This document shows, piece by piece, positions 10,401 through 34,300 of a stretch of 58,579 nt of DNA (position 1 is its first letter; every line of letters begins with the position of its first letter). The notes under the pieces are model-generated. The model saw nothing but the letters and a program-made list of their open reading frames with translations, searched no databases and had not been told where the DNA came from. The translations under genes and the position numbers were made by a program. Location: contig RFHT01000615.1 in NCBI GenBank assembly GCA_003696835.1, positions 1 to 58,579 of the forward strand, written 5' to 3'. The stretch comes from Bacteroidota bacterium (GTDB taxonomy: Bacteria; Bacteroidota; Bacteroidia; J057).

Positions 10401-11552
10401 ATGAAGGTTAAATCTATTGAAAGCTTTATTCTTTCAGACAAGTTGAAGGAGAGTTTTTACTTTTCTCAATGGGAATATTCTGAGCGACAAATTTGCATTG
10501 TAAAAATAACCAGCGATACTGGGCATGTTGGTTGGGGTGAAGGCTATGGTCCCGCAGGCTTGATTAGAGCTGGTATAACGCATCTCACTCCTTTTATCCT
10601 TGAACAAAACCCACTTGAGATTGAAACGATTTGGCAAATCATGTACCGCCGCACCTTAGATTTTGCAAGAAGGGGAATTCTCGTTTCTGCTATGAGTGCC
10701 ATAGATGTTGCACTTTGGGATTTAAAAGGCAAAATATTGGAACAACCCGTTCATTTATTATTAGGTGGAAAAAAACGGGACTGCATTATCCCTTATGCAA
10801 CAGGTATGTATTTCACCAATGGCGATAATTTAGGAGATATTTTGTCGGAAGAAGCAAAGCATTATGCTGAGCTGGGATTTAAAGCGATGAAAATGAAAGT
10901 GGGGCTTGGTATAGATGAGGATATCGAACATGTAAAAATGGTTCGGGAAGCGATTGGACCCGACATCAATTTGATGATTGATGCCAATCATGCCTACAAT
11001 TTGCGGGAGGCCGTACAACTCGCAAAAGCCGTTGAAACTTATAACATTTATTGGTTTGAGGAGCCTGTTTCTCCTGAATATTATGAGCAATATGCAGAAC
11101 TGAGAACAAAAACAACGATACCTATTGCCGGAGGGGAATGCGAATATCTTCGTTTTGGATTTCAGACCTTACTGAAGTCTAAATCTGTAGATATTGTACA
11201 GCCCGATATATGCGCTACAGGAGGACTTACAGAAGCTAAAAGAATTGCTGTTTTAGCTTCTGTTTATGGAGTTGAAATTGTTCCGCATACGTGGGGAACT
11301 GGCATTGCGATAGCCGCAGCTTCCCATTTTATTTTTAATTTGGATACCGTTCCAGGCCGTTTAAAAACGCCCAATTGCTATATGGAATACGACCGCACGG
11401 AAAATGGCTTGCGGGATGAGCTCACTTCTACTGATATGATATTTGAGGACGGGGAAATAAAAATTTCTGATGCCCCCGGTTTGGGATTTGACCTAAATGA
11501 AGATGCTTTACACAAATATGCATTAACAGATAAAAATGAAATTTGGACATAA
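10401..11552 (+). CDS. enolase-superfamily (mandelate racemase/muconate lactonizing) sugar-acid dehydratase or cycloisomerase
   Basis: A 383-residue protein with an enolase-type capping domain and barrel. Visible catalytic residues: KxK at K164/K166 (KAMKMKVG), metal ligands D194 (IDAN), E220 (WFEEP) and E246 (AGGE), D269, and H296 (PHTWG). This set abstracts the alpha proton of a sugar acid. The next genes are an aldehyde dehydrogenase (17-bp overlap) and a KDPG-type aldolase, matching the known anhydrogalactose route (dehydrogenase, anhydrogalactonate cycloisomerase, aldolase). It is therefore a candidate 3,6-anhydrogalactonate cycloisomerase. A galactonate-, fuconate- or other aldonate-dehydratase role is equally possible from sequence alone. 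Codon use is AT-rich compared with 1-9700. Confidence 0.88.
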   Translation: MKVKSIESFILSDKLKESFYFSQWEYSERQICIVKITSDTGHVGWGEGYGPAGLIRAGITHLTPFILEQNPLEIETIWQIMYRRTLDFARRGILVSAMSAIDVALWDLKGKILEQPVHLLLGGKKRDCIIPYATGMYFTNGDNLGDILSEEAKHYAELGFKAMKMKVGLGIDEDIEHVKMVREAIGPDINLMIDANHAYNLREAVQLAKAVETYNIYWFEEPVSPEYYEQYAELRTKTTIPIAGGECEYLRFGFQTLLKSKSVDIVQPDICATGGLTEAKRIAVLASVYGVEIVPHTWGTGIAIAAASHFIFNLDTVPGRLKTPNCYMEYDRTENGLRDELTSTDMIFEDGEIKISDAPGLGFDLNEDALHKYALTDKNEIWT

Positions 11553-12975
11553 AAAACTATACATCAATGGGCAGTTGAGAGAAGCTGCTAATGCCCAATC
11601 TTATGAGGTGGTTTGCCCGGCAAATGAGAAAACGATAGCGACCATCTCTTGGGCTGGCAAAGAAGATGCGATCTATGCACTTGCATCTGCAAAAGAGGGG
11701 TTTGAATACTGGTCAAATTTGCCATTAGGTGAGCGCATCGAATGGATTCATAAACTCAGAGATAAGCTTCTTGAAAACAGAGATTTGCTACGTAATGCAA
11801 TTATGTATGAGATGGGCAAGGTGTGGCAAGGTACAGAGGAAGACCTGACTAGCATTACCGATTCCCTTCAGTACTATACCGAGGAAATTAAAACCAAAGA
11901 AGATATACCTATTCAGGATAAAGAAGGAACCCATACACATTGGTTAGTACATCAGCCCCTGGGAGTGGTCGTAGCCTTTCTCGCCTATAATTTCCCTTTA
12001 TTAAACCTTGGTTTTAAACTGGGTCCAGCCCTCTCCGCTGGTTGTTCGATCATTATCAAACCTTCAGAATTCTCTCCCCTATCTGCATACCTCATTGGAG
12101 AGATCTGCGAGCAAATCGATTTTCCTAAAGGGGTGATCAATATCCTTTGCGGAGATGTCGCAGAGGTGGGCATTCCCCTTTGCGAAAGCAAAATTCCCAG
12201 GCTCATCACCACGATCGGATCTACCGAAACGGCGCAAAAACTCATTCAGCAAAGTAGCAAAACCTCCATCAAGAGGTATAGCATGGAATGCGGAGGAAAT
12301 GCCCCATTCATCGTCTTTGATGATGCAGATCTGAATTTGGCCATCGAACATGGGGCGGCGCTCAAAATTGGTAATACTGGCCAGATATGTGTCGCGCCCA
12401 ATAGATTTTTTATTCATGAATCTGTGATTCACGCTTTCACAGAGGGGATGGTCGAGAAATTTCAACAGGTAAAAATTGGTTTTGGAAAGGAAAATAAGCC
12501 CGATATGGGGCCTTTGGCCAATCGGCAGTCGGTGGAAAAAGTGCACCAAATTGTTAAACTAGCGATTAAACAAGGTGGCAAATTAATCTACGGTGGAGAA
12601 CCTATTGACCAGCCTGGCCATTACTTCCAGCCTACCGTTATTCGGTTGAATGACCCAGATGCAGAAGTACTTCAGCATGAAATTTTTGGCCCCGTGGCCA
12701 TGATTGTTCCCTTCTCTACCAAAGAGGAGGTCATTGATTATGCCAATCATACTCCTGCGGGTTTGGCCTCTTATGTCTATTCACAAGCTCAGGATACCCT
12801 GGATTATTTTGTTGAACACCTGGAATTTGGTGAAATTCATCTGAATGGGCTAAAGTTTGATATATATCTCCCGCATGGTGGAATAAAAAATAGTGGGATA
12901 GGAGTAGATTGTTCAACCTATGCACTCGATGATTACCTGATTAGAAAAAGGGTAACTTTAGCTTTGAATGAGTAG
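11536..12975 (+). CDS. NAD(P)-dependent aldehyde dehydrogenase
   Basis: A 479-residue member of the aldehyde dehydrogenase superfamily with oxyanion Asn N152 (YNFP), general base E251 (MECGGNAP) and nucleophile C285 (NTGQIC). It oxidises an aldehyde to the acid in the cytoplasm. No signal peptide is present. Its start lies inside the end of the cycloisomerase gene and its end overlaps the aldolase start (12968), so the three are translationally coupled. Context suggests oxidation of a sugar aldehyde, for example 3,6-anhydrogalactose to its aldonate. This is inference, because close relatives also act on lactaldehyde, succinate semialdehyde and glycolaldehyde. Confidence 0.92.
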   Translation: MKFGHKKLYINGQLREAANAQSYEVVCPANEKTIATISWAGKEDAIYALASAKEGFEYWSNLPLGERIEWIHKLRDKLLENRDLLRNAIMYEMGKVWQGTEEDLTSITDSLQYYTEEIKTKEDIPIQDKEGTHTHWLVHQPLGVVVAFLAYNFPLLNLGFKLGPALSAGCSIIIKPSEFSPLSAYLIGEICEQIDFPKGVINILCGDVAEVGIPLCESKIPRLITTIGSTETAQKLIQQSSKTSIKRYSMECGGNAPFIVFDDADLNLAIEHGAALKIGNTGQICVAPNRFFIHESVIHAFTEGMVEKFQQVKIGFGKENKPDMGPLANRQSVEKVHQIVKLAIKQGGKLIYGGEPIDQPGHYFQPTVIRLNDPDAEVLQHEIFGPVAMIVPFSTKEEVIDYANHTPAGLASYVYSQAQDTLDYFVEHLEFGEIHLNGLKFDIYLPHGGIKNSGIGVDCSTYALDDYLIRKRVTLALNE

Positions 12976-13711
12976 AAAATTAGCAAATAGGGAGTGTTTT
13001 TTTAAGCAAAAAGATATGGATCCCATTTCTCAAAGGGCTATGCCATCAGACCTCATCAAAAAAATAAACGAAGCAGGGGTAATTGCAGTATTAATTATTC
13101 ACAAACTCAAGCACGCGCTTCCACTTGCAAAAGCCCTTTTAAAAGGAGGTGTTAATACGATCGAGCTTACGCTTCGGACAGCAGTTGCGATTGATGCCGC
13201 ACGTCTCATCAAACAAGAAGTCCCAGAAATCACATTGGGGGTTGGAACTGTGATCACAACGGATCAAGTGAAAGCCGTTGTAGAGGTGGGTGCCGACTTT
13301 GCTGTTGCACCAGGGTGCAACCCCAGGATTATCTGGGAAGCTCAAAAACAGAATTTACCCTTTTCTCCAGGCATTATGACCCCAACGGATATAGAAATTG
13401 CGCTTGAACTGGGATGTAGGATTTTAAAATTCTTTCCTGCCCAGACCGCAGGAGGATTAGCACACCTCCAAAGCATGGCTGCTCCCTATCAGCATCTGGG
13501 CATCAAATTTATTCCTCTTGGGGGGGTCAACATGCAAAATGCGCGCACCTATCTCGAGTCTCCGCTTATCACAGCTATTGGTGGCTCTTGGATAGCCAGG
13601 CCTAGCCTTATCCAAAGTGAAAGCTGGGAGGAGATAGCCAAAAATGCTGCAGAGATAAGTACACTATCAAAGGAGATTGCAGTTTTTCAACGCGTGCCGA
13701 AGCATGGATGA
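12968..13711 (+). CDS. 2-keto-3-deoxy-6-phosphogluconate/galactonate-type aldolase
   Basis: A class I KDPG/KHG aldolase of 247 residues with general acid/base E66 (IELTLR), GVGTV at 91-95 and Schiff-base Lys K154 (ILKFFPA). It cleaves a 2-keto-3-deoxy-6-phospho sugar acid to pyruvate and glyceraldehyde 3-phosphate. I kept the ATG overlapping the previous stop. An ATG at 13016 would remove 16 unusual N-terminal residues and give a more typical length. It completes an oxidation, dehydration/ring-opening and cleavage series, but the kinase that would phosphorylate its substrate is not present in the window. Confidence 0.9.
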   Translation: MSRKLANRECFFKQKDMDPISQRAMPSDLIKKINEAGVIAVLIIHKLKHALPLAKALLKGGVNTIELTLRTAVAIDAARLIKQEVPEITLGVGTVITTDQVKAVVEVGADFAVAPGCNPRIIWEAQKQNLPFSPGIMTPTDIEIALELGCRILKFFPAQTAGGLAHLQSMAAPYQHLGIKFIPLGGVNMQNARTYLESPLITAIGGSWIARPSLIQSESWEEIAKNAAEISTLSKEIAVFQRVPKHG

Positions 13712-13955
13712 AGGGTTCTGCTTCAAACTCTTTCTTTTCATTTTGTACAAAGCACAACACGGTATGAATCCAGCAATACGAAATATTTCACTTATCCGCT
13801 CTATCAGGAAAGGGATAAAATAATGCACAAACAAGACCGGATAAGTTTCATCCATCCTCATTGTGATATTCCTTTTTGATTTACAGAAAAGAAAAATAAC
13901 TCAGATGAAAGGTCTATATGCCAAATTAGAGATGCCTAAACCAGCAGTAAGTAGG

Positions 13956-15425
13956 ATGAAATATCTATTTCATACTATTTTTCTTGCGCTACTATTCGGG
14001 CTAGGCTTTTGCTCCATCATTAGTTGCCAGCAAGTAAATGGCGAAAAAGTAGAGATTACCGATTCAAGCCTTTATCCGGCTTCTGACCCAGAGAATTCAG
14101 GAGGCTGGGTACTCAACGAAGCCCTCAGCGACGAATTTGAAGGAGTCGAACTGGACACCAATAAATGGTTCATAGAAGGACAAAACGGAGATTATTATAT
14201 CTGGAAAGGTCGCCCCCCTTCACAATTTGCTCCACATAATGTCATTGTTGAGGATGGCAAACTGAAAATAAGGACTCAATGGGAACCTGAGTACGAGTTC
14301 GTGAAGGAAAATTATGCAGACGGCAATAATAACGATGCCTATGGCATCTTCGAAGGCAAACCTTTACCCGTTACAACAGCAGGGGTCATTACTAAAAAGC
14401 GCTTTTTAAATGGCTATATGGAAGTTAAATCCAAAGCGGGAAATGCGGCTATTACATCGGCCTTTTGGGCCATTGGTTATGAGCAGGAATTAGATGTGTT
14501 TGAACAAATGGGAAACCCCAAAGTGGAAAAAGGGGATATTTGGGCGACAGGTTCAAAGACTACCATCCATGATTGGAGCCCGCCAGCCCAAAGACCCACC
14601 TGGACATGGGCATACAAAAACAACCAGTTGCCATTCCGCGTCGCGGATGATTTTCATATATACGGTGCCGAGTGGGGAGAAGATTATCTGAAAGTATTTA
14701 TGGATGGAGAACTAGTAGCCGAAGTTACACAAGATGAATTAGGGACCGATTGGGTGTTGAACAATCCTATGGAGATATGGCTAGACTCTGAGATATTCAA
14801 ATGGTTGGGGTTACCACACAAAGAAGAACTTCCCGTTGATTTTGAGGTGGAATACCTGCGGGTGTGGCAAAAACCTAATGATCATTTATTGGCGAGACAG
14901 TTTTTTGGATTCGAAGGCCCCATACTTTTCGAAGAGAATCCCCGCCCACTTACCTTATTGCCAGAAAGCTCTGTTCCCAACGATTATCAAAAATTTTGGC
15001 TGATTGATACAGCTTCGGCCCGGTATTTTTCAATTGTGAAAGGCCAGTATGCCAAAGGAGTAAATAGTCTGGCGTTTTCTGGCTTGGCAAAAAATGAGGA
15101 ATTACCTATCGACAAAGTAGTGGCCTTATCGCCTGAGGGGGCCCTCAACCTTCCTGCCGGAGAATTGACCCTTTCTCTAAAAGTATGGTTAGATCAAGGG
15201 CGGGCAGTAAAAAAATTACATTTGAGTTTAAAAGATGAAGATATTCACATCCCTGTTGATTTGGCTGGTTTGGAGAGGCGAAAATGGATAACCATAGAAA
15301 AACCTATTAGCAAAACAACTCCATCGACATCGACTGATCAATTAAAAATCGAAATTCGGAAGGAAGATTTTCCACCTATTAAAGCGGCAAAGTTTTATAT
15401 AGATGACATTGCGATTCGCAAATAA
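13956..15425 (+). CDS. glycoside hydrolase family 16 lipoprotein with C-terminal accessory domain
   Basis: Start chosen at 13956, where a lipoprotein signal begins (lipobox IISC, Cys24). An earlier in-frame start at 13863 would add 31 poorly hydrophobic residues. The mature 489-residue protein has a GH16 catalytic domain (about 55-315) with the motif ELDVFE, giving nucleophile E178, assisting D180 and acid/base E183. Residues about 320-489 form a separate beta-rich domain ending in a KFYIDDIAI strand, resembling a carbohydrate-binding jelly roll. GH16 enzymes of marine Bacteroidota include agarases, porphyranases, carrageenases and furcellaranases. The subfamily cannot be fixed by eye. The anchor suggests the cell surface. 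The 243-bp gap before it holds no other gene. Confidence 0.88.
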   Translation: MKYLFHTIFLALLFGLGFCSIISCQQVNGEKVEITDSSLYPASDPENSGGWVLNEALSDEFEGVELDTNKWFIEGQNGDYYIWKGRPPSQFAPHNVIVEDGKLKIRTQWEPEYEFVKENYADGNNNDAYGIFEGKPLPVTTAGVITKKRFLNGYMEVKSKAGNAAITSAFWAIGYEQELDVFEQMGNPKVEKGDIWATGSKTTIHDWSPPAQRPTWTWAYKNNQLPFRVADDFHIYGAEWGEDYLKVFMDGELVAEVTQDELGTDWVLNNPMEIWLDSEIFKWLGLPHKEELPVDFEVEYLRVWQKPNDHLLARQFFGFEGPILFEENPRPLTLLPESSVPNDYQKFWLIDTASARYFSIVKGQYAKGVNSLAFSGLAKNEELPIDKVVALSPEGALNLPAGELTLSLKVWLDQGRAVKKLHLSLKDEDIHIPVDLAGLERRKWITIEKPISKTTPSTSTDQLKIEIRKEDFPPIKAAKFYIDDIAIRK

Positions 15426-15430
15426 TAGCC

Positions 15431-15454
15431 GGGGCCCAGACGCTTATGGGCCCC
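15431..15454 (+). other. intercistronic hairpin between GH16 and sugar porter genes
   Basis: An 8-bp perfect GC stem (15431-15438 with 15447-15454) and 8-base loop, right after the GH16 stop. No T run follows, so it is more likely an mRNA-stabilising or partial attenuating hairpin than a strong terminator. Confidence 0.5.
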
Positions 15455-15551
15455 CTCACAAGTTTGGGATGAAAATCAAAGTTTGTCGAATTTTGCTCAC
15501 CCACTCCAAACTCAGCATTTACAATTCCACCCTCAACATGATCCACCTACT

Positions 15552-17114
15552 ATGAATACCTACCAAAGAAATGCCTTCACGTATGCCACCATTGTCGCAA
15601 TAGGAGGATTTGTATTTGGATTAGATGCAGCTTTGATTTCTGGAACCGTCAATTTCATTTCTCAAGAGTTTTCCCTTACAGACTGGGAACTGGGAACGGC
15701 TGTGAGTGCACCAGGTTTAGGCGTTTTGATTGCTTTGCCTTTTGCAGGTTATGCGAGTAATTTGCTGGGGCGAAAACGCACCCTGCAAATTATTGCAGCC
15801 CTATACCTCATTTCAGCCATTGCCTCGGCCCTGGCCCCAAATTATTTGATGCTTGTAGCAGCACGCTTCCTTGGAGGTTTGGCCTTTAGTTCGATCACTT
15901 TGGCTTCTATGTATATTGGTGAAATTGCCCCTTCAAAATGGCGGGGCCAACTGGTATCCATGACGCAGATCAATATCGTAATTGGTTTATCCGCCGCTTA
16001 TTTTATCAATTATCTCATTCTTCAGGCCACCAATTCAGGCGCTGCTTGGGTAGATTCTTTGGGTATCACCCAATATACCTGGCGCTGGATGCTGGGTTCG
16101 GAGATCTTGCCAGCTTTGATTTGGTTTGGGTTACTCTTTCTTATTCCCAGGAGTCCGTACTGGTTATTGTATAAAAATAAAACAAAAGAAGCGCAACGTA
16201 CACTTCGGAAAATCATTCCCGAACAAGCAATCTCTCAAAAAATTGAAGAAATTCAGATCAGCCTTCAAGAAAGTACCGAAGACCGTTCTGTTTCAAGCCA
16301 ATTAACAGAAATTTTCAGCAAACCGATGCGTATGATTTTGATTATTGCTGTCACGATTGCCATTGCCCAACAATCAACAGGGATCAATGCCATTCTATTT
16401 TATGCGCCTACGGTCATTGAACAAATAGGCATTGGAACCAATGCCGCATTTCAACAAGCTGTATGGATAGGCTTAACCAGTGTGGTATTTACCCTTTTAT
16501 CTCTACTATTGGTTGATAAGATTGGCAGGCGTTCTATGATCTTATGGGGAATGGTATGGATCATTATCAGTTTATCGGTTTGCTCATGGGGTTTTAAGCA
16601 AGCTCGCTACACCCTTTCACAAGCTGCTATTGCGGAATTGACAGAAGTTCCGAATGTAGAGCGATTAAAAGATTTGCTTGGGGTCGAATATCAAAGCGAT
16701 ACGGAGTTTAAAAAAGCATTGATCGACGTCCTGGGAGAAGAAGACGCCCGAAATTTTTCAAGCTTATTATTACAAAAAGCGGCAAAGATGAATGCCTTAT
16801 TGATTCTCATAGGTATTTTGAGCTTCATCGCGGCATTTCATTTTTCTGTTGGGCCTATTATGTGGGTATTATTTTCTGAGATATTTCCTATATCTCTGAG
16901 GGGGATTGCCATCCCATTTTTTGCTCTCATCACCAGCTTCACCAGCTATTTGGTTCAACAATTTTTTCCCTGGCAACTCTCTACTATGGGTGGAAGTGCC
17001 ATTTTCCTCTTCTATGCCATTACCGTCGCAATAGGTTTCATCATTCTGTATCGCTACTTACCAGAAACCAAAAATATGTCCATTGAGGAAATCCAAGCAG
17101 CTCTCAGAGCTTGA
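15552..17114 (+). CDS. MFS sugar transporter (sugar porter family)
   Basis: Start at 15552 chosen because the first transmembrane helix follows at the usual distance; an upstream frame of 23 polar residues is unlikely. The protein has 520 residues and about 12 transmembrane helices. It carries the sugar porter signatures GRKRT after helix 2, PRSPYWL before the central loop, QQSTGINAI in helix 7 and PETK near the C-terminus. An extra soluble loop of about 65 residues (LTEVPNVERLKD onward) lies between helices 9 and 10, seen in many Bacteroidota sugar porters. It is probably the inner-membrane importer for the monosaccharide handled by the preceding enzymes. Confidence 0.9.
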   Translation: MNTYQRNAFTYATIVAIGGFVFGLDAALISGTVNFISQEFSLTDWELGTAVSAPGLGVLIALPFAGYASNLLGRKRTLQIIAALYLISAIASALAPNYLMLVAARFLGGLAFSSITLASMYIGEIAPSKWRGQLVSMTQINIVIGLSAAYFINYLILQATNSGAAWVDSLGITQYTWRWMLGSEILPALIWFGLLFLIPRSPYWLLYKNKTKEAQRTLRKIIPEQAISQKIEEIQISLQESTEDRSVSSQLTEIFSKPMRMILIIAVTIAIAQQSTGINAILFYAPTVIEQIGIGTNAAFQQAVWIGLTSVVFTLLSLLLVDKIGRRSMILWGMVWIIISLSVCSWGFKQARYTLSQAAIAELTEVPNVERLKDLLGVEYQSDTEFKKALIDVLGEEDARNFSSLLLQKAAKMNALLILIGILSFIAAFHFSVGPIMWVLFSEIFPISLRGIAIPFFALITSFTSYLVQQFFPWQLSTMGGSAIFLFYAITVAIGFIILYRYLPETKNMSIEEIQAALRA

Positions 17115-17200
17115 TGGGAAGCATTAAATTCATCTTAATGTTGTTTTACCTGGCAGGTCTTGTCCCCTGGCAGGGATCTCCTCTTCCAATTTTTTATCAA

Positions 17201-17520
17201 ACTTATACTTTACGGACTTGCGGCACGTACATGCACTTTGAGCACAAAGCCGGGGAAAAGCGCTACATGGATTATAGCAGCAAAAAACTTTAGGCGGTGG
17301 ATTCAAGGTGTGGGGCACTAGTGGAAGTAGAAGTGTTTGTGGCCAGCCAGTTGACTTATACCGAAGCCAGTAGGAGCTAAGCAAATATGAAACCCTGCTG
17401 AATGAAAGCCTTGTCAACCTGGCCTTACACCATGGTACAACCATACTACCCAAGCGCAATTGCAACCCCATACGAACTCAAAGGCGTTGCCTGGACCAAG
17501 GCTCAAAAGAACTGCCATGA
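17201..17520 (+). pseudogene. decayed IS21-family istA transposase fragment
   Basis: Translated pieces match the IstA catalytic region. MHFEHKAGEKRYMDYSSKKL begins at 17231. After an in-frame TAG (17291-17293) the same frame continues as VEVEVFVASQLTYTEAS. A shifted frame then gives LVNLALHHGTTILPKR (about 17406-17456), and another shift gives KALPGPRLK. Intact IstA has these as ..HFEHKAGEK-Y-D-GKKL.., ..VEVFVA..LTY-EA.. and ..A-HYGTTILP.. in that order. The protein is therefore truncated, internally deleted, frameshifted and stopped. No istB or terminal repeats are recognised. The remaining 17521-17799 shows no gene. Confidence 0.7.
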
Positions 17521-17799
17521 TAAAACAACCACAACCAAAGGTAAATTTCTAAGTTCTAAAAGGCCATTTGCATTATGCAAACCGAAGTCCGATTCAGGCA
17601 GAAAACCGGGAATAGATCTGCAGAAATGCCTCAGAAGCAGGCAATTTGATTCAAACCATCAGAAATAAAAGCTAATAAAAATCTAAACAAAAACTTGACA
17701 AACAACATTTTGAACCTAATTCCACCTTCACTTTTCAAATCTTTTTTGCATATTTAAGCTTAGTAATCAGCTCCTTACGAGGATTCACTAACTAAGCAG

Positions 17800-19437: not shown

Positions 19438-19462
19438 GAGATTATTTCATTCATTATTCGTT

Positions 19463-25200: not shown

Positions 25201-25299
25201 AAAGGAAACCAGGGGATTGAGGACGTCGCACCCGGAATCAATATAGGCGCCTACCCCAACCCGCGCACCTTTTCACTGGGCGTAAAACTGGGGTTTTGA
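22285..25299 (+). CDS. SusC/RagA family TonB-dependent outer-membrane transporter
   Basis: Start at 22285 (MKQFLQ), where the signal peptide begins. Earlier in-frame starts add unrelated sequence. The protein has 1004 residues. After the signal (about 1-26) come a carboxypeptidase-D-regulatory-like domain (VSGQVTSASDNTPLVGVSV to FSYIGYERKEVVV), the SusC hallmark DEVVVIGYGTVKKSDLTGAV, and a plug with GAVATV..LQGRAAGV..IRGVNSI and IYGIRGSNGVIMVTTKKG. A 22-strand barrel ends in an aromatic final residue (LGF). It imports oligosaccharides together with the SusD lipoprotein encoded next, using TonB energy. Confidence 0.97.
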   Translation: MKQFLQIPKQWWLFTLLVVSFGFAHGQVTVSGQVTSASDNTPLVGVSVVLKGTQTGTLTNDEGKFSINVPNSNSVLMFSYIGYERKEVVVGNQNTLNISLNPSETFLDEVVVIGYGTVKKSDLTGAVATVSPKSFENQPLTRVEDALQGRAAGVIVAKANGQPGSNFKVRIRGVNSITGNNSPLVVVDGIQGIDLSTINPGDIESIDVLKDASATAIYGIRGSNGVIMVTTKKGSGQGKINVDYFATLSQVPRFLPTLADHPADFARLENIRRINVGGNPTFTDAEIAQLEANGGTNYQKEIFQTAYGHNLQLSASGSEGRINYYISGIYRDQEGIVINTNYKQLSLRSNLEAQVNDKIKIGLNVFANRGETLNDFSFAGNVQGSLVAKALTWDPTTPVFNEKGEYNLRSIKGIASLNDNPVRTLMLSDARNINEQLNTALNAEWSITPDLTYSLIAGAQMNNFNSKIYDVEVGDDFLPHTAFRNNKWTFYQISNVLTWQKEFGLQNLKLTGVQEYSNGKSDINGWNANDLSLPRGFYFAELAPNAGQTVNNNFSERELSSLMLRAEYVFDNKLFVTATGRYDGTSVFRKDQRWGFFPSLAVAYSLNSLVEDSDFLSSLKLRAGWGQVGSQNVGPYSTFGRLGFNSFAFDFSSASPGTVITSFENADLTWETTTQTNVGVDLGILRGRGTATLEFFTKKTTDLLLATPVPGTFGGGIINRNVGEVQNIGVDLSLGYTVIQSDNLVWDFIFTSSYVKNEVTKLYNDLEEIQGLYTSPGGQSRVLNIIQAGQPLGQFQGATFLGTWKSSEAEQAQQFGKKPGDAKYLRDENGEIVFGAIGNGTPKFVWGFNNTISFMNFELNIFFQGMHGFDVYNIQQAMITGGAGDSRSFMAVDQINQWTPTNETDIPATVQFYNSSRYIEKGDFIRLSNINLGYTFNDLGLSNAMYVKIYASGQNVFLITEYSGYDPELSSRKGNQGIEDVAPGINIGAYPNPRTFSLGVKLGF

Positions 25300-25360
25300 G
25301 ATGAATGAGGCGAGAAGTCAGAAGCAATCTCCCATTAACCATCAAACAACCATTATCAAA

Positions 25361-26968
25361 ATGAATACAAATCGTAAATCTATACGTTTCAGGGCCTGGC
25401 CCATCATGCTGCTTGCCACCGTGCTGAGCATGGCCCTGCCGGCTTGTGAACAATTCGATCTGAATGAAGACCCAGGCAAATCGCAGTTGGCAGTTTTACC
25501 TTATCAGAGCCTTTCAGAACTGGAGTTGGCTGTAACGGGTACCTACAACCGGCTGCACCGGGCCCTGTGGATGACCACCGCTTTCGTAAGCGCATGGGGC
25601 GGCGACGACCTGACCACTCACCGGGCCAGCAATAAGGCAGACTTTCGAGAATATGACCAGCGGCTGGTCACCCCGGGCAATGCCCGAACCAGGGGTACCT
25701 GGAACGGCCTCTACCAAGCCATTCGCGCTGCAAACACGGTACTGGTCAATGCGGCTGAAACGGACCTGCCCGACCGACAAGCCCAGGATCAACTCGTAGG
25801 TGAAGCCTATTTTATACGGGGATTTGCCTTCCATCATTTGGCCAGGGTACACGAAAGAATCCCCTTGGTGCTGGACATCGTGCCGAACTTTGAAATCGGC
25901 CTGGCCTCCCGGCAGGAAGTGTTTCAGCAAATTGAAAGTGATTACCTCAAGGCGGAATCCATGTTGCCGGTTTCCAGTACTCTGGGGGCCACCCGTCCCA
26001 ATAAAGGAACTGCCAGAGCCTTTCTCGCACGGCTTTATATGGATTGGGCCGGCTATCCGCTGAATGACAATTCCAAATATGCCCAGGCAGCTTCCAGTGC
26101 CAAACAGGTAATAGACAATGCCGCGAATCATGGCTTTGCCCTCGTTCCTGATATGAGAACGCTCTATACCCTCGCAGGCTCTCAAAACACAGAAGGCGTA
26201 TTTACCCTTGCTCACTGCCAGCCCTGTGGCCTTGCAAATCGAAAAACCGGAAAGCTGGGCCTTCCGGGAGACTTTGGAGGCTGGCAAGAATCATTCGCCG
26301 AAATCAGGTTTTTTGAAGATATGCCCGATAATTACCGAAAAGAAATTACCTACCATACGGAAATACCTCTGGATGCCAATGGAAGAGTGACCCCGGATGT
26401 GGCCAATGCGGTCAGTTTTATTCCCTGGACCGAATTTAAAGATCAGCAGAACCCCGTTTTCCAGAAAATTACCGGCCCCTTTGAAGACAATATTTTCAAT
26501 GGGTTCCAAAATTCCCGCTCAGATTATCTGATGCGTTATGCAGAGGTATTACTCACCTATGCCGAAGCTGCCGGAAGATCGGGCTCTGTAACGGCAGATG
26601 CCTGGGAAGCCCTGAATAAGGTTCGGCGAAGAGCCGAAGGCCTACCTGTCGATCAGCCTGCTCCCGGCGTTGACCTGAGTTCTGGGGATATTGCCGAGCT
26701 GGCCTATACGGAAAGAAAATGGGAATTTGCGGGTGAGTACCTTCGGTGGTATGATCTGGTGCGCATGGAAAGGGTGGAACAGGCCCTGGGCGGTTCGGCC
26801 CGAGACCCGAGAGTGTCCATAGGCACTGCTTTTGATGCCAACGGCAATCCTACGCCTATGCCGCTGACAAAACCCTCCAACCCCATTCTGGGGTCGCTGA
26901 GTCCCGACAACTATTTCCATCCCATTCCCCCGGACGAAGTGGCTCAATTGCCCAATTTGGGAAAGTAA
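25361..26968 (+). CDS. SusD/RagB family surface glycan-binding lipoprotein
   Basis: Start at 25361 (MNTNRKS) gives a lipoprotein signal with lipobox LPAC; an upstream start would place 20 polar residues before it. The mature protein of about 535 residues is alpha-helical with TPR-like elements. It shows SusD features: LAVTGTYNRLH, the W-N-G-L-Y-Q-A-I-R-AAN stretch, EAYFIRGFAFHHLAR, and C-terminal EVLLTYAEAAGRSG, RRRAEGLP and ERKWEFAGEYLRWYDLVR. It forms the lid of the SusC transporter. The gap to SusC is 61 bases. A strong terminator follows at 27003, so susC-susD end a transcript. Confidence 0.97.
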   Translation: MNTNRKSIRFRAWPIMLLATVLSMALPACEQFDLNEDPGKSQLAVLPYQSLSELELAVTGTYNRLHRALWMTTAFVSAWGGDDLTTHRASNKADFREYDQRLVTPGNARTRGTWNGLYQAIRAANTVLVNAAETDLPDRQAQDQLVGEAYFIRGFAFHHLARVHERIPLVLDIVPNFEIGLASRQEVFQQIESDYLKAESMLPVSSTLGATRPNKGTARAFLARLYMDWAGYPLNDNSKYAQAASSAKQVIDNAANHGFALVPDMRTLYTLAGSQNTEGVFTLAHCQPCGLANRKTGKLGLPGDFGGWQESFAEIRFFEDMPDNYRKEITYHTEIPLDANGRVTPDVANAVSFIPWTEFKDQQNPVFQKITGPFEDNIFNGFQNSRSDYLMRYAEVLLTYAEAAGRSGSVTADAWEALNKVRRRAEGLPVDQPAPGVDLSSGDIAELAYTERKWEFAGEYLRWYDLVRMERVEQALGGSARDPRVSIGTAFDANGNPTPMPLTKPSNPILGSLSPDNYFHPIPPDEVAQLPNLGK

Positions 26969-27002
26969 AGGAAACATAGTAAGTTTAGTTTCACATATCA
27001 GA

Positions 27003-27120: not shown

Positions 27121-27137
27121 CTAAAACCCCAAATTCT

Positions 27138-30100
27138 ATGTGGATTCGAAGTCGATGGAACATTCTGGTTAGTTGTTTTTTGTTCACGGCCTTGCTATAT
27201 GCATGTGGTGAAAATTTGGAGGAAACCTCCACCAGCTCACAAAAGCTGTTTACAAAAGTGTCAGCCGAACAATCGGGTATTCACTTTCAAAATACCATTG
27301 AAGAAACAGAAGAAAGCAATTATTACCAGTATATGTACACCTATATCGGGGGGGGAGTAGCTACCGCAGATTTTAACCGCGATGGCCTGGAGGATCTCTT
27401 TTTTATTTCCAATTCCTTCGACAACCAATTGTACCTCAACCGGGGTAACTTTACCTTTGAGGAAGTCTCCCAACAGGCGGGAATTGTGAAACGTCCGGGT
27501 TTCGATACCGGCGTTTCCGTCGCAGATGTCAATCAGGATGGCTGGCCGGATATCTATATTTGCCGCGGAGGCTGGATCGACCGGGACAAGCGCTTTGCCA
27601 ATATGCTCTACATCCATCAGGGCGTAAATGATGCCGGCGAAATTTCGTTTGTGGAACAGGCAGCCGAATACGGGCTCGCAGATGACAACCGGGGTATTCA
27701 GGCCACCTTTTTCGACTACGACAAAGATGGAGACCTGGATGTGTACATTGCCAATAGCCCCGACTTTGAAGACCGGGCCTCAGACATATTGCCGATGAAG
27801 TCCATTCCAACCGACCCCAAAACGATTACGCAGAAGGGGAGTGACAAACTCTATCGCAATGAAGGCTCCGGACGGTTTACGGATGTGTCCGAAGCCGCTG
27901 GCATTTTACCCGATATCGGCTTTGGCCTCAACCCTCAGGTGGGGGATTTTAATCAGGATGGATGGCTCGACCTCTACGTTTGCAATGATTTCAGAATCCC
28001 GGATTTTCTGTATATCAACAATGGGGATGGCACATTCCGGGAAGCACGGGACGAAATGCTGAAGCACATGTCATTCAACAGTATGGGAAGCGATGTAGGG
28101 GATATCAACAACGATGGCCTGATGGACATCTTTACCCTGGACATGAACCCGGAAGATTACGTTCGCTCCAAAACCACCATGGGCATGACGCCTGTGCATC
28201 GCTTTGAAGAAATGGTGGCCAAAGGCTATCACTACAACTATATGCACAATATGTTGCAGCTCAACAACGGCAACAGTACCTTCAGCGAAATTGCACAAAT
28301 GGCGGGTGTGGCCAATACAGACTGGAGTTGGGCTTCTCTGCTGGCCGATTTCGACCTGGATGGATACAACGACCTTTTCATTACGAATGGGGTTTTCAGA
28401 GATGTGATTGACCGGGATGCAAACAATAAAATTCTTCAAATTCTCAGAACGAATAATCGAAAACCAACCAAAGCGGATTTTCTGGCATTTACCAAAATGC
28501 TGCCTCAACAAAAGCTCAATAATTACTTCTTCCGCAACAAAGGTGATCTCACATTTGAAGATGTGTCAACCCAATGGACTGATTCCGTTCCCACCTTTTC
28601 CAATGGCGCTGTTTATGCGGACCTGGACAATGATGGAGACCTCGATGTGGTGGTTAATAATATCAACAGCCCGGCTGAGGTATTTCAAAACCAGGCTTCA
28701 GATAATCATTCGGGAAACTATTTGCAAATAGAACTCCTCGGCCCTCCCAAAAATATACAGGGAATAGGAACTGTGGTCAAACTTTACCAGCATGACGGAA
28801 GCATACAGATACGCCAAATGATCCAAAGCAGGGGGTTTCTTTCTGCAGTATCGGGAAGGTTACATTTCGGACTGGGCATGGCTGAGCGGATCGATTCTCT
28901 TGAAACGATCTGGCCCGATGGAAAAAAACAAATCCTTACCCAGGTTGCTGCCAATCAACCGCTGAAAATCGACTACCGGGCGGCAAGCCTTCCCCCCAAA
29001 AAGGCAAAGCCCGAATCCAAGCCCCTCTTCAAGAAGGTATCCATTGATATTGTCCATATAGATCCCGCTTACAACGATTATCAAAAACAGGTACTATTGC
29101 CACATAAACTGTCTCAAACAGGGCCGGGCTTTGCAAAGGGGGATGTCAATGGCGATGGAAAGGAGGACATTTATTTAGGCGGTGGACATACACAGGCAGG
29201 GCAATTGTTGCTGGCAAATGCACAAGGAACATTTTCGCTTCATACCGTTTCTGCTTTCGAAAGGGATCGCCAGAAAGAAGATGTGGGAGCCTGTTTTGTT
29301 GATATCGATAATGATGGTGACCTGGATTTGTATGTGGTGAGCGGAAGCTACGAATTTGATATGAACTCAAAATTACTGGTGGATCGACTTTACCTAAACG
29401 ATGGAACAGGTCATTTTTCAAAATCCACCGGACTCATTCCTGAGGTACCGATTGCAGGTTCAGTGGCCATACCTGCCGACTTTGATCAGGATGGAGATAT
29501 AGACCTCTTTGTAGGCGGTAGAGTTATTCCGGGCAATTATCCCTATCCTCCTGAAAGTATGCTACTGCGCAATGAAGGGGGTAAATTTTCCATCGCGACG
29601 CCCGATATAGCACCGGAACTGACTCATATCGGCATGGTAACGGATGCAACCTGGGCAGATATAGACGGCGACCAGGACCTGGATTTGGTTTTAACTGGTG
29701 AATGGATGGGCATTGAGGTATTCGTGAATGAAAACGGACAATTGGCCCGGCACGAATCCTACGCCGGCCTCGCTGCTCAGGTGGGATGGTGGAATGCACT
29801 AACAATTGCCGATGTGGATGATGATGGTGATCAGGATATTGTGGCCGGCAATTTGGGACTGAACTACAAATTTCACGCTTCGCCTGAAAAACCCTTTCAT
29901 ATATATACACATGACTTTGATTACAACGGTACCACAGATATCATTTTAGCCAAATACTACAAAAATACAGAGGTACCCGTAAGGGGAAAAACCTGTGCTA
30001 CTCAGCAAATTCCACATTTGGCTCAGAAGATTACCTCATTCCATGACTTTGCCAGCCGGGACCTCGAAGGAATTCTGGGGCCTGCCGTCAAATCAGCCCT

Positions 30101-30512
30101 GCATTACAAAGCTGTGGAATTCAGAAGCGGAATTTTCATGCATGAAGAGGGGGGTAATTTTCAGTTCAGACCTTTCGACAATCATATACAACAATCTCCC
30201 ATCAACAGCATTGTGTATGCCGATACGGATGGTGATGGCATCAAGGACCTGCTCATGGCTGGCAACAACTATATGCCGGAAATCGAAACCACCAGAGCAG
30301 ATGCCGGAATAGGAGCCTTTCTCAAAGGAGTCGGAAAGGGGCATTTTAAAGCAGTTTCTCACCACCAGTCCGGTTTTTTTGCCCATGATGATGTCAGAGG
30401 TTTGTTGCTATTGAAGCGAGAAGGGGATTTCAGTATCTGGGTCATCAATAATAATGGGCAACATGCGCTTTTTGTGCCTGCTACCTCCCCCCTGAATATC
30501 GCTCAGCGATAA
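27138..30512 (+). CDS. VCBS/FG-GAP repeat and ASPIC/UnbV domain lipoprotein (CRTAC-like)
   Basis: An 1124-residue protein with a lipoprotein signal (lipobox LYAC). It contains about fourteen Ca-binding-type loops of form D-x-(N/D)-x-D-G-x-x-D, such as ADFNRDGLEDLFF, ADVNQDGWPDIYI, FDYDKDGDLDVYI, VDIDNDGDLDLYV and ADVDDDGDQDIVA. They are arranged as two FG-GAP/integrin-like propellers separated by an ASPIC/UnbV domain (about 530-600, GTVVKLYQHDGS to TIWPDGKKQ). Such proteins are recurrent in Bacteroidota polysaccharide loci, and no enzymatic activity is established for them. It is probably surface-exposed. Its place after SusD suggests a glycan-binding or docking role. Confidence 0.92.
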   Translation: MWIRSRWNILVSCFLFTALLYACGENLEETSTSSQKLFTKVSAEQSGIHFQNTIEETEESNYYQYMYTYIGGGVATADFNRDGLEDLFFISNSFDNQLYLNRGNFTFEEVSQQAGIVKRPGFDTGVSVADVNQDGWPDIYICRGGWIDRDKRFANMLYIHQGVNDAGEISFVEQAAEYGLADDNRGIQATFFDYDKDGDLDVYIANSPDFEDRASDILPMKSIPTDPKTITQKGSDKLYRNEGSGRFTDVSEAAGILPDIGFGLNPQVGDFNQDGWLDLYVCNDFRIPDFLYINNGDGTFREARDEMLKHMSFNSMGSDVGDINNDGLMDIFTLDMNPEDYVRSKTTMGMTPVHRFEEMVAKGYHYNYMHNMLQLNNGNSTFSEIAQMAGVANTDWSWASLLADFDLDGYNDLFITNGVFRDVIDRDANNKILQILRTNNRKPTKADFLAFTKMLPQQKLNNYFFRNKGDLTFEDVSTQWTDSVPTFSNGAVYADLDNDGDLDVVVNNINSPAEVFQNQASDNHSGNYLQIELLGPPKNIQGIGTVVKLYQHDGSIQIRQMIQSRGFLSAVSGRLHFGLGMAERIDSLETIWPDGKKQILTQVAANQPLKIDYRAASLPPKKAKPESKPLFKKVSIDIVHIDPAYNDYQKQVLLPHKLSQTGPGFAKGDVNGDGKEDIYLGGGHTQAGQLLLANAQGTFSLHTVSAFERDRQKEDVGACFVDIDNDGDLDLYVVSGSYEFDMNSKLLVDRLYLNDGTGHFSKSTGLIPEVPIAGSVAIPADFDQDGDIDLFVGGRVIPGNYPYPPESMLLRNEGGKFSIATPDIAPELTHIGMVTDATWADIDGDQDLDLVLTGEWMGIEVFVNENGQLARHESYAGLAAQVGWWNALTIADVDDDGDQDIVAGNLGLNYKFHASPEKPFHIYTHDFDYNGTTDIILAKYYKNTEVPVRGKTCATQQIPHLAQKITSFHDFASRDLEGILGPAVKSALHYKAVEFRSGIFMHEEGGNFQFRPFDNHIQQSPINSIVYADTDGDGIKDLLMAGNNYMPEIETTRADAGIGAFLKGVGKGHFKAVSHHQSGFFAHDDVRGLLLLKREGDFSIWVINNNGQHALFVPATSPLNIAQR

Positions 30513-30615
30513 ACAATGGTTAAAATCCTGTAACAACAGGATAATTTCCAACAATCCCAGAAAGCCCCATTCCTGTTTATTTACATTCACAGCAATTGGG
30601 TTTATTCAACCTATT

Positions 30616-32643
30616 ATGAAAAAGCTATTTTGGGTAATACATTTTTTACTTATGGTTCTCATTTCCAAAGCTCAACACCAGGGCATTATCAACAACGCCT
30701 CCAGCCCGCATGTACGTCTGAAAAGCATTAACCTGGGCGACTGCCGCTGGACAGAAGGCTTCTGGGCCCAAAGGTTCAAAGTGGCCGAACAGGCGATGGT
30801 ACCCTATATGGGAGAGGTACTATGTGGGGAGGTTGGCCATGCACTAAACAATTTTAAAATTGCCGCCGGCCTCAAAGAAGGCCAGCACCAGGGCATGCAC
30901 TGGCATGATGGTGATTTCTACAAATGGCTGGAAGCCGCCATGTACATTTATGCGCAAAACGGAGACAAAAAATTGCTGAAGGAAATCGATGGATACATCG
31001 ACATCATTGGGCAGGCACAGCAAGCAGATGGCTATCTGCAAACCCAGGTACAGCTCCGGGACCATATCGACCGCTACGAAAACCGCAGGTTTCATGAAAT
31101 GTACAATACCGGGCATTTACTAACCAGCGCCTGTATTCACCATCGTGTTACAGGCCAACGCAATTTCCTGGACATCGCCATCAAACATGCAGATCTGCTC
31201 TACACCATCTTTTATCCCGAGACCAAACATTACGGACGATTTGGATTTAATCAAACCCAGATCATGGGCTTAGTCGAATTGTACCGAACCACCCAGGACC
31301 GGAAATACCTGGAGTTGGCAGAGCGCTTTATCAACCGGCGGGGGAAATACAAAGTGGAAGACCATCCTACTACCAAGGGCTATCCAATCGGTGATATGGT
31401 GCAGGAACGTACGCCCCTCAGAAAATCACATGAGGCTGTAGGCCACGCAGTACTGGCTTTGTACTACTATGCAGGAGCTGCCGATGTGTACGCCGAAACG
31501 GGGGAAAAAGCCCTGATAGATGCCCTGGACAGGCTTTGGGAAAATGTAACCCACAAAAAAATGTATATAACCGGAGCGGTCGGTCAGGCACATTACGGCG
31601 TTTCTACCAATCTCGACATGATTCAGGAGGGATTTATCGACGATTATATGATGCCCAATCTGACGGCTTATAACGAGACCTGTGCCAATGTATGTAATGC
31701 CATGTTTAATTATCGCATGCTCACCATTAAAGGAGAAGCCAAACATGCCGACGTTATGGAACGCGTGCTCTACAATAGTGCGCTCTCAGGCATCAGCCTG
31801 GAAGGCAAAGATTATTTTTATGCCAATCCGTTGCGGATGATTCACAATACCCGCGATTATCATGCGCATGCCAATATAACCGAAACGCCTAAGCGGGAGC
31901 CCTATTTATCCTGTTTTTGTTGTCCGCCCAACCTGGTGCGTACCATCGCCAAACTCTCCGGCTGGGCCTATGGGCTATCGGATAACGGACTTTCTGTCAA
32001 CCTTTATGGCGGAAACAGCCTAAACTCCCGGCTTTTGGACGGTTCAGTCATCAAACTCACCCAGGAAACGCAATACCCCTGGGAAGGCTCCGTCACGATC
32101 AAGATGCTGGAATGCAAAGAGGAAGCTTTCGATATGATGCTGCGCATTCCTGAATGGGCAACCGGCACGGAGATTCGGATAAACGGAAAGAAAGCGCAGG
32201 TGGAAGCAGTTCCAGGTACGTTTGCCACCATCAGCCGGCAATGGAAAGCAGGGGATGTCATTTCTCTCAACATGCCCCTGGAAGCTACTTTGGTAGAAGG
32301 CCATCCCCGAATAGAAGAAATTCGCAACCAGGTGGCCATTCAGCGAGGCCCGCTCATTTATTGCATAGAAACCCCTGATCTGCCGGAAAATACCGATATT
32401 CTGGATGTGTATATTTCGGGAAATACCCCCTTGAAAGCTACCTATCGGCCTGACTTTTTGGGAGGGCTTACTACTATTGAAGGAAAAGTGCTGTTACGCC
32501 AGGATCAAAAGGAAGGTATGTACCGAAGCATACGCAAACCTGAGCTGAAGCCCTACCATACCCGCTTTGTTCCCTACTATGCCTGGAGTAACCGGGGGCT
32601 GGCAGAAATGACGGTCTTTATGCCAGTCGTATGGGAAGAATGA
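30616..32643 (+). CDS. glycoside hydrolase family 127 protein (DUF1680)
   Basis: A 675-residue exported protein (signal about 1-19). It has an alpha/alpha barrel and the GH127 zinc site: E354 and C356 (NETCANVC), C435 and C436 (FCCPPN). In characterised GH127 these four ligands hold Zn and one Cys is the nucleophile, so the enzyme looks active. Beta-sandwich domains follow (about 460-675). GH127 includes beta-L-arabinofuranosidases and, in marine carrageenan loci, 3,6-anhydro-D-galactosidases. Given the sulfatases, GH16 and the anhydro-sugar enzymes nearby, the latter is my preferred guess. It starts 103 bases after the VCBS gene and 28 bases before the second sulfatase. Confidence 0.92.
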   Translation: MKKLFWVIHFLLMVLISKAQHQGIINNASSPHVRLKSINLGDCRWTEGFWAQRFKVAEQAMVPYMGEVLCGEVGHALNNFKIAAGLKEGQHQGMHWHDGDFYKWLEAAMYIYAQNGDKKLLKEIDGYIDIIGQAQQADGYLQTQVQLRDHIDRYENRRFHEMYNTGHLLTSACIHHRVTGQRNFLDIAIKHADLLYTIFYPETKHYGRFGFNQTQIMGLVELYRTTQDRKYLELAERFINRRGKYKVEDHPTTKGYPIGDMVQERTPLRKSHEAVGHAVLALYYYAGAADVYAETGEKALIDALDRLWENVTHKKMYITGAVGQAHYGVSTNLDMIQEGFIDDYMMPNLTAYNETCANVCNAMFNYRMLTIKGEAKHADVMERVLYNSALSGISLEGKDYFYANPLRMIHNTRDYHAHANITETPKREPYLSCFCCPPNLVRTIAKLSGWAYGLSDNGLSVNLYGGNSLNSRLLDGSVIKLTQETQYPWEGSVTIKMLECKEEAFDMMLRIPEWATGTEIRINGKKAQVEAVPGTFATISRQWKAGDVISLNMPLEATLVEGHPRIEEIRNQVAIQRGPLIYCIETPDLPENTDILDVYISGNTPLKATYRPDFLGGLTTIEGKVLLRQDQKEGMYRSIRKPELKPYHTRFVPYYAWSNRGLAEMTVFMPVVWEE

Positions 32644-32671
32644 GTCTTTATTTCAACATTACCCTCTAATC

Positions 32672-34300
32672 ATGCAAAATTATTTGCTTATTGTGGCCAT
32701 ATTCGCAGGCTTGTGTGCCTGTAAGCCGCCTGAACCGAAGGCCGAAAAACTCAATATCCTTTTTATTGCCATCGACGACCTTCGCCCCGAACTGGGCTCT
32801 TATGGCTCGGAAATAGCCGTTACGCCTCATCTGGACAAATTGGCCAGTGAGGGGCTGCAGTTTAACCGCGCCTACTGCCAGCAGGCCATTTGCAGCCCTT
32901 CCCGCGCCAGCCTCATGACCGGTGCACGCCCCGAGACCATTAACATTATCGAGAATTACACCTATTTCCGCGACCTCAATCCCGATATCGTAACCCTGCC
33001 CCAGCACTTCCGGGCCAATGGCTACGAAACTGCCTACTGTGGCAAAGTGTTCCACGGCAGGTTTACAGATGACTCGCTTTCCTGGAGTAGAAAAGCGGCT
33101 CAGATAACAACGCCCAAACCCAATTTTCCAGGTGGCTATGCCCTGCCTGAAAATCAGCGGATTTATCAGGAAAATAAAGAGGCAATGAAAGCCATATACG
33201 GGGATGTATATGGCCTGGGTATGGGGCCAGCTTACGAAAAAGCGGATGTTCCCGACCAAAGCTATATCGACGGATATAACACTGATCTGGCCATTGCCAC
33301 CATGCAGGAAATGGCCAAAGGAGACAAACCCTTTTTCCTGGGCTTTGGATTTCACCATCCGCATCTCAACTGGCTTACCCCAAAGAAATACTGGGATATG
33401 TACGATCCGGAGGAGATTCCGCTCACTACACAGCCTGATCCCCCAAAAAACGGAGCCGCGATGGGCTTACATGCTTCATTTGAATTGCGGGTTCGCCACG
33501 GTATCCCCAAAAGCGGCCCTATTGAACCCCAACTCGCACGTACCCTCAGACACGCCTATCTCGCCAGCGTGAGCTATGTCGATGCTCAGATTGGGCGTAT
33601 GATTGAAGCCCTGGAAGCCGCAGGCATACGTGATCATACTGTAATTATCGTTTGGAGCGATCATGGGTGGCACCTGGGGGAAATGGGCGTATGGGGTAAA
33701 GCCACCAATTATGAAATAGCAACACGTGTTCCGCTGATAATCTGGACCCCCGATATGCCGGACCAAAACCGGGGAGTGGCGACAGATGCACTGGTAGAAC
33801 TGGTAGATATGTATCCGACGCTTTGTAAACTTGCCGGATTGGAGTTACCCACCCATTTGGAGGGCCATAGCTTTGCCCCCCTGCTTTATGATCCTCATCA
33901 AAAGTGGAAAACTGCTGCTTTTAGCCAGTATCCCAACCCGGCTTTGCGAGAATGGGCGGCAAATCCGCTTTCGCCGGAGATGCGAAAAACCTATTTTGGT
34001 CCGCTAATCCGGGATGTTGAAGCGCGAATAATGGATCAGCAGCAGGAAAAATGGGATCGGGAACTGTTTGAACAACACCTGATGGGCTACAGCATGCGCA
34101 CTGACCGCTACCGTCTGGTAGTATGGAAGGATCGGAGAAAACCCCATCAAAAACCGCTCTATGTCGAGCTGTATGATCACCATGTTGATCCTGCGGAAAC
34201 GAATAACGTCGCCGGGATAAATCCAGCTTTGGTAAGTAAATTGTTGGATCAACTGGAAGCAGGCTGGGAAGGAGCCTTGCCGAAGCCGCACCTTGACTGA
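32672..34300 (+). CDS. S1 family sulfatase lipoprotein (iduronate-2-sulfatase-like)
   Basis: A 542-residue sulfatase with lipobox LCAC (Cys17), metal ligands D35/D36 (AIDDLRPELGSYG), formylglycine motif C74-S-P-S-R78 (ICSPSRASLMTG), GKVFHG and SDHGWHLGEMG. The DDLRPELG start and RPETINI..YTYFRDLNPDIVTLPQHF segment are typical of the iduronate-2-sulfatase-like S1_7 group, which in marine Bacteroidota includes carrageenan sulfatases. The substrate is inference. It is the last gene of the block and is followed by a terminator-like inverted repeat before ssrA. Confidence 0.93.
   Translation: MQNYLLIVAIFAGLCACKPPEPKAEKLNILFIAIDDLRPELGSYGSEIAVTPHLDKLASEGLQFNRAYCQQAICSPSRASLMTGARPETINIIENYTYFRDLNPDIVTLPQHFRANGYETAYCGKVFHGRFTDDSLSWSRKAAQITTPKPNFPGGYALPENQRIYQENKEAMKAIYGDVYGLGMGPAYEKADVPDQSYIDGYNTDLAIATMQEMAKGDKPFFLGFGFHHPHLNWLTPKKYWDMYDPEEIPLTTQPDPPKNGAAMGLHASFELRVRHGIPKSGPIEPQLARTLRHAYLASVSYVDAQIGRMIEALEAAGIRDHTVIIVWSDHGWHLGEMGVWGKATNYEIATRVPLIIWTPDMPDQNRGVATDALVELVDMYPTLCKLAGLELPTHLEGHSFAPLLYDPHQKWKTAAFSQYPNPALREWAANPLSPEMRKTYFGPLIRDVEARIMDQQQEKWDRELFEQHLMGYSMRTDRYRLVVWKDRRKPHQKPLYVELYDHHVDPAETNNVAGINPALVSKLLDQLEAGWEGALPKPHLD

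Follow-up and report, generated by a model that had tools for sequence, protein, structure and literature searches.

A core carrageenan system, dauABCD-dagA-cgsB-cgrA-cgtAB, has been described from Zobellia, together with the observation that dauC is missing in some carrageenan-degrading species, for which a non-phosphorylative route was proposed (PMC5698469). Related enzymes are known from the carrageenan polysaccharide utilization locus (CarPUL) of Pseudoalteromonas fuliginea PS47 (PMC6923384) and from Wenyingzhuangia fucanilytica, whose Cgbk16A is a beta-kappa-carrageenase of subfamily GH16_13 (PMC8371452; PDB 9INT). Here, we analyzed a 58,579-nucleotide stretch of DNA of a Bacteroidota bacterium (hereafter designated the window), that is, the whole contig RFHT01000615.1 (C807) of assembly GCA_003696835.1 (6.19 Mb, 842 contigs, 89% complete), and found by open reading frame (ORF) calls and Pfam a block of 13 genes, all intact and all on the plus strand, at positions 10401–34300. 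The block very probably serves the utilization of a kappa-family carrageenan, most likely the hybrid beta/kappa-carrageenan (furcellaran-type), as judged from sequence comparison. A carrageenan locus is in itself an already-known kind of system; what stands out are the traces left by lost genes and exchanged modules, chiefly an apparently deleted kinase and two mutually exclusive kinase/aldolase pairs. The family calls that a preliminary description had made for all 13 plus-strand genes were each borne out by Pfam, as follows.

10401–11552, plus strand: dauB, MR_MLE enolase superfamily, predicted 3,6-anhydro-D-galactonate cycloisomerase (Pfam; closest structure 5OLC)
11536–12975, plus strand: dauA, aldehyde dehydrogenase (Aldedh), predicted 3,6-anhydro-D-galactose dehydrogenase (Pfam; closest structure 6PNU/6POP)
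12968–13711, plus strand: Eda-type aldolase for 2-keto-3-deoxy-6-phosphogluconate or -galactonate (Pfam KDPG/KHG aldolase), whose last ~16 residues run through a kdgK relic
13905–15425, plus strand: predicted GH16 endo-carrageenase lipoprotein, GH16_13-like, beta/kappa type (Pfam, motifs; PMC6952198, PMC8371452); the ORF call is 13863–15425, with 13905 as the better start
14898–15422, plus strand: C-terminal beta-sandwich domain of the GH16 protein, CBM4/16-like (AlphaFold, Foldseek)
15483–17114, plus strand: MFS sugar porter (Pfam; 59–70% identical to MFS genes of carrageenan-type loci)
17800–19437, plus strand: TPR-HTH regulator (Pfam; weak C-terminal match to the BT3442 family)
19424–20320, plus strand: AraC-family regulator, CgrA-like (Pfam; 58–65% identical to AraC counterparts in many related loci)
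20422–21828, plus strand: S1_19-type sulfatase, predicted to act on exo-galactose-4-sulfate (6PRM match; formylglycine motif CGPSR)
22177–25299, plus strand: SusC-like TonB-dependent transporter, putative CgtA role (Pfam; 50% identical to Cytophagales locus L025)
25301–26968, plus strand: SusD-like lipoprotein, putative CgtB role (Pfam; 54% identical to L025)
27138–30512, plus strand: FG-GAP/ASPIC lipoprotein, candidate surface glycan-binding protein (56% identical to L025, adjoining SusC/SusD there)
30616–32643, plus strand: GH127, predicted alpha-1,3-(3,6-anhydro)-D-galactosidase (DagA; 64–70% identical to carrageenan-type loci, best structure 5MQO)
32672–34300, plus strand: second S1 sulfatase lipoprotein, CgsB/S1_7-like (nearest structure 6HHM; formylglycine motif CSPSR)

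Like the cluster ZGAL_3145-3159 of Zobellia galactanivorans (PMC5698469), the block combines DauA, DauB, GH127, two sulfatase types and an AraC-family regulator for a predicted catabolism of anhydro-D-galactose. It differs from that cluster in carrying SusC/SusD inside the block, a linked GH16 gene, the FG-GAP/ASPIC lipoprotein, the TPR-HTH regulator and gene relics, and in having an Eda-type aldolase without DgoK/DgoA; a GH129-like gene and an S1_17 sulfatase were not recognized in it, and the beta-galactosidase gene is distal in Zobellia too. Of the published core, dauA, dauB, dagA (GH127), cgsB (S1_7) and cgrA (AraC) were all found, but dauC was not found in the locus, which does not exclude the block from the wider system, since species without dauC are reported in the same paper. 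The block fits the core Zobellia system gathered in one place together with SusC/SusD, minus dauC and with an Eda-type aldolase as putative dauD. The preliminary description had held that the gene order matches no nameable layout; the order is indeed rearranged, but the layout can be named, being that of the core carrageenan system (PMC5698469). The window dauB groups with Saprospirales loci on the dauB tree among the named records, and the host is therefore probably close to Saprospirales, which would bring a one-block carrageenan system into the neighborhood of that order. In the PS47 CarPUL (PMC6923384), an S1_19 exo-4S-kappa sulfatase, DauA and a GH16 acting on beta-carrageenan are shared with the window, whereas GH167 is present without GH127, and SusD is not expected outside Bacteroidota.

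The nature of the sugar is indicated by DauB. Its closest structure is 5OLC, which is Zobellia DauB (E 4e-145, aligned without gaps), with a score of 487 bits against 152 bits for the L-anhydrogalactonate cycloisomerase 5XD7. The catalytic K/D/E/E/H named in PMC5698469 are conserved, and the FSQW lid motif is common to the window protein and DauB but missing from the galactarolactone cycloisomerase 4GGB. The two scores argue for D-anhydrogalactose, that is, for carrageenan rather than agar or porphyran, and the sulfated, anhydrogalactose-containing galactan proposed in the preliminary description can be sharpened to this extent. The window aldehyde dehydrogenase is closest to 6PNU/6POP, DauA of Pseudoalteromonas (E 8e-141), and is 66–77% identical to DauA of Pseudozobellia, Arenibacter and Echinicola loci. 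It is highly improbable that the block is instead an agar or porphyran locus, with GH16 as an agarase or porphyranase and with the dehydrogenase, enolase-type and aldolase trio degrading 3,6-anhydro-L-galactose. Although the ExxxW motif of GH16 (see below) also occurs in agarases and porphyranases, porphyranase A is among the structural relatives of the GH16 protein, and the agar route likewise ends with a 2-keto-3-deoxygluconate kinase and an Entner-Doudoroff aldolase, the D-specific DauB is a far closer match of the enolase-type protein than the L-specific enzyme, and GH127 stands in place of GH117; moreover, no 5-dehydrogenases, GH117, GH50 or GH86 were recognized within the block, and the S1_19-type sulfatase has a kappa-carrageenan enzyme as its closest match.

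That enzyme is 6PRM, an exo-4S-kappa-carrageenan S1_19 sulfatase (E 7e-200), and the next different sulfatase scores more than 330 bits lower. The S1_19-type sulfatase is thus not nearest to enzymes for ulvan, fucoidan or glycosaminoglycans, specificities which the preliminary description had named as an outcome that would speak against a galactan. The two formylglycine sulfatases and the intact Zn-Cys site of GH127 announced there can be read in the translations, as the motifs CGPSR and CSPSR and as the Cys/Glu site NETCANVC and SCFCCPPN, respectively. The comparison with described loci that it had recommended revealed homologues of GH127 (64–70% identity) and of the second sulfatase (60–70%) in named carrageenan-type loci of Pseudozobellia, Echinicola, Algoriphagus, Kriegella, Algibacter and others, the second sulfatase being 70% identical to that of Pseudozobellia. 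Within the block, to which the subfamily comparison was confined (the genome has 27 further sulfatase matches), no S1_17-type 2-O-sulfatase (CgsC) was recognized, and this argues for a kappa/beta-type rather than an iota-type substrate. For the same reason, iota-carrageenan is very unlikely to be the main substrate; some S1_19 enzymes do act on it, and 6B0J is among the matches of the S1_19-type sulfatase, but its best match is the exo-kappa enzyme, with the lead of more than 330 bits given above.

S1_7-type sulfatases and GH127 are also found in ulvan and rhamnogalacturonan-II loci. Nevertheless, a fucoidan, ulvan, glycosaminoglycan or pectin locus in which the family names agree by coincidence is barely credible, even with 6HHM as the nearest structure of the second sulfatase and 5MQO as that of GH127, in view of the five enzymes that independently indicate carrageenan.

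The GH16 protein is 46% identical in its catalytic domain to the beta-kappa-carrageenase 9IJC/9INT (Cgbk16A), with the following match 110 bits lower. Both motifs shared with Cgbk16A can be read in its translation, the ExDxxE triad as ELDVFE and ExxxW as SEIFKW. The latter has been reported in those GH16 enzymes whose subsite -1 accommodates an unsulfated galactose, kappa-carrageenases having Trp and Arg there (PMC6952198), and the window protein thus has the motif combination of a furcellaranase. Unlike Cgbk16A, it is one of five proteins forming a separate supported clade; all five come from carrageenan-type loci and share an extra C-terminal domain of ~180 residues. The AlphaFold model of this domain (pLDDT 68.6, moderate, built from four sequences only) is a nine-strand beta-sandwich with CBM4, CBM16 and CBM61 as the best Foldseek matches, suggesting that it is likely a carbohydrate-binding module (CBM). 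No characterized member of this clade with a CBM-like tail was among the proteins found. The FG-GAP/ASPIC gene follows SusC/SusD both in the window and in the Cytophagales locus L025 (50/54/56% identity for the three proteins), and its lipoprotein is a candidate for surface glycan binding. A second FG-GAP/ASPIC protein (40% identity; L152) is encoded on contig C296 of the same genome (G000), together with two sulfatase genes; this contig possibly carries another polysaccharide utilization locus.

Several points weigh against the carrageenan assignment or its details. The clade of the window GH16 (support 97/97) lies beside the characterized GH16_13 enzyme 9IJC rather than containing it, so the exact linkage preference given here is tentative. 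The SusC/SusD pair is recognized by Pfam, but its equation with CgtA/CgtB (ZGAL_3580/3581) is a putative role only, and the sulfatase subfamily numbers were taken from homologues, not from SulfAtlas. Because several loci with the closest DauB proteins have neither a GH127 nor an S1_19-type sulfatase gene up to 10 kb away, DauB alone is insufficient as proof of carrageenan. Finally, a linked beta-galactosidase gene and a linked kinase gene are absent from the block.

From the gene content, homology, motifs, relics and base composition observed here, we infer the following reactions, localization and order of steps. The lipid-anchored GH16 with its CBM-like tail would cleave the beta-1,4 linkage that follows an unsulfated galactose, and the oligosaccharides would be imported by SusC/SusD, aided by the FG-GAP/ASPIC lipoprotein. 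Galactose-4-sulfate groups would be removed by the S1_19-type and S1_7-like sulfatases, 3,6-anhydro-D-galactose released by GH127, and galactose freed by a beta-galactosidase encoded elsewhere. After entry of the monosaccharide into the cytoplasm through the MFS porter, anhydrogalactose would be oxidized by DauA and the product isomerized by DauB to 2-keto-3-deoxygalactonate, which would be phosphorylated by a kinase encoded elsewhere and then cleaved to pyruvate and glyceraldehyde-3-phosphate by the Eda-type aldolase. GH2 genes occur on contigs C28, C545 and C343 of the genome. In a Saprospirales locus (L013), a GH2 beta-galactosidase gene that is absent from the window lies directly after kdgK (14438–17674), and untyped ORFs of the same size lie nearby in Draconibacterium, Maribacter and Flavobacterium loci.

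The lower pathway was further compared among 61 loci around dauB homologues, within the fetched flanks and not all of them proven carrageenan loci. Of these loci, 21 combine a kinase of the PfkB type (KdgK) with an Eda-type aldolase and 12 combine DgoK with a DgoA-type aldolase, whereas none has both pairs. Two Maribacter loci have neither pair, and in one of them (L016, 12616–13374, after dauA) an HpcH/HpaI-type aldolase, checked by Pfam, takes that place as a third aldolase solution; its counterpart in L020 is untyped. When traced along the dauB tree, the class of DauA and that of the kinase/aldolase pair require at least 5 changes each, which indicates that parts of the locus are exchanged. 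The window aldolase is of the Eda type (~30% identical to the Zobellia-type DgoA) and retains all catalytic and phosphate-site positions, which favors a phosphorylated substrate. Neither a DgoK nor a PfkB kinase gene is present in the window, only a kdgK relic, whereas elsewhere in the genome DgoK is encoded on contig C215, and KdgK together with an aldolase on C143, either of which could supply the kinase in trans. The C215 gene (L140, 5549–6517) is an orphan dgoK of native base composition at a contig end, 34–36% identical to carrageenan-type DauC. We would give roughly even weight to the view that the non-homologous KdgK/Eda-type pair replaces DgoK/DgoA in many Bacteroidota loci, that the reported lack of dauC reflects a swapped kinase rather than a route free of phosphorylation, and that the window represents a further stage, in which the linked kinase was deleted and a resident one acts in trans. 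The exclusive distribution of the two pairs would offer a different and testable answer to the missing dauC. A Leu at the position matching Eda-161 was rejected as proof of galacto-specificity, being not decisive; it is found in 21/21 Eda-type proteins, the Zobellia-type DgoA of L063 having Thr in the matching PTGG motif.

As a separate observation, DauB homologues (56–66% identity) occur in L118–L119, L055 and L064, whose fetched flanks lack a DauA-type aldehyde dehydrogenase; L118 has an AraC-SusC-SusD-ASPIC-dauB-sulfatase block. These loci may be devoted to a different anhydro-sugar or rely on a different dehydrogenase.

The history of the block is documented by four gene relics in its gaps, which, like its lowered guanine-cytosine (GC) content, had escaped the preliminary description. 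Profile scores, from hidden Markov models (HMM), are given against the best of 300 shuffled sets scored with the profile of the same family.

10129–10230, plus strand: 5' end of a second dauB (LSGQPNDWLCFSQWAYSERRLCIVKITS; tblastn E 2e-7; HMM 21.2 bits, controls at most 7.0)
13657–13725, plus strand: kdgK (PfkB sugar kinase) 3' end, in a different frame from the aldolase (HMM 9.9 against 5.3 bits in controls)
17562–17666, plus strand: probable 3' end of a second eda, with an internal stop (tblastn E 0.003; HMM 10.3 against 5.4 bits in controls)
21839–22046, plus strand: N- and C-terminal stubs of a GntP-type permease with the middle deleted (29.0 and 8.7 bits, controls at most 7.0; E 1e-7)

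The permease stubs are on the same strand and in the correct order. Shuffles scored with the profiles of other families reach 13 bits, and the eda relic is therefore probable at most; the case for the kdgK relic depends on its position. In relatives, kdgK directly follows eda, and the relic lies at exactly that place, consisting of the last ~23 codons (KYTIKGDCSFSTRAEAWMKGSAS against KHSIKGDFNFSTRAEVEALMGGSAS) that overlap the aldolase end in another frame. It is up to 68% identical over 25 amino acids to the C-termini of kdgK products, a value attained by 0/1000 shuffles for most orthologues. On the best reading of these sequences, the kinase gene appears to have been deleted in place, leaving the aldolase with a foreign tail of ~16 residues. 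No such relic was found behind the kinase-less eda of Dyadobacter (L023), and in the gaps of the block none of 12 other families (among them rhaT, GH2, dgoK, dgoA, GH127, sulfatases, AraC, MFS, dauA, hpcH and susC) rose above controls. Both the dauB and the eda relic have their best match in Maribacter algarum, which would fit the suggestion that an older module was replaced by the present one. A single stretch of DNA may in this way record how such a locus evolves, with modules swapped and fossils of the replaced genes left behind.

The base composition also sets the block apart. Its GC content in 2-kb windows is 41–51%, compared with a mean of 54.5% in 76 windows from 16 other contigs, and 8 of its 12 windows fall below the lowest of the 76. 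Third-position GC is 33–46% up to the AraC gene, 50–56% after it and 57–72% in the flanks, as if two segments of the block came from different sources. In contrast, the carrageenan locus (L116) of the same-family genome G002 has the GC content of its host; it resembles the window in dauB (82–83%), GH16 (65%), GH127 (66%), the S1_19-type sulfatase (72%), MFS (70%) and AraC (62%), but has a DauA of another class (51%), kdgK, a second short GH16 and a different SusC. Presumably, the block was acquired horizontally and rearranged, with the linked kinase gene deleted in place and remains of dauB, the permease and probably eda left in the gaps. No viral copies of GH127 were found.

The block sits between the 3' ends of two RNA genes.

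9914–9988, plus strand: tRNA-Met, left border, 3' end toward the block (ARAGORN)
34504–34873, minus strand: tmRNA, right border (ARAGORN and Rfam)

Within the block, neither copies of the 3' end of either RNA gene nor an integrase were recognized, as would mark a genomic island. Island insertion at tRNA-Met or tmRNA was considered and rejected, as there are no 3'-end repeats and no empty site, and the neighbors are not syntenic in the fetched relatives. The lack of a junction repeat and of an empty site, like the fragmentation of the assembly, would also be compatible with a mis-assembled contig as the source of the relics and low GC in place of gene loss and transfer. We regard this as quite unlikely: the relics show substitutions, an internal stop and a 6-nt gap, unlike the sharp joins of a chimaera, every block gene is intact, and homologues of both flanks occur in the same family. 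Those flanks belong to the host, because the amidase left of the block has homologues in other same-family genomes (70% identity in G001) and the DUF1573 gene on the right adjoins tmRNA in several of them. The tmRNA-DUF1573 pairing is conserved across the family, and the opposite side of tmRNA differs between genomes.

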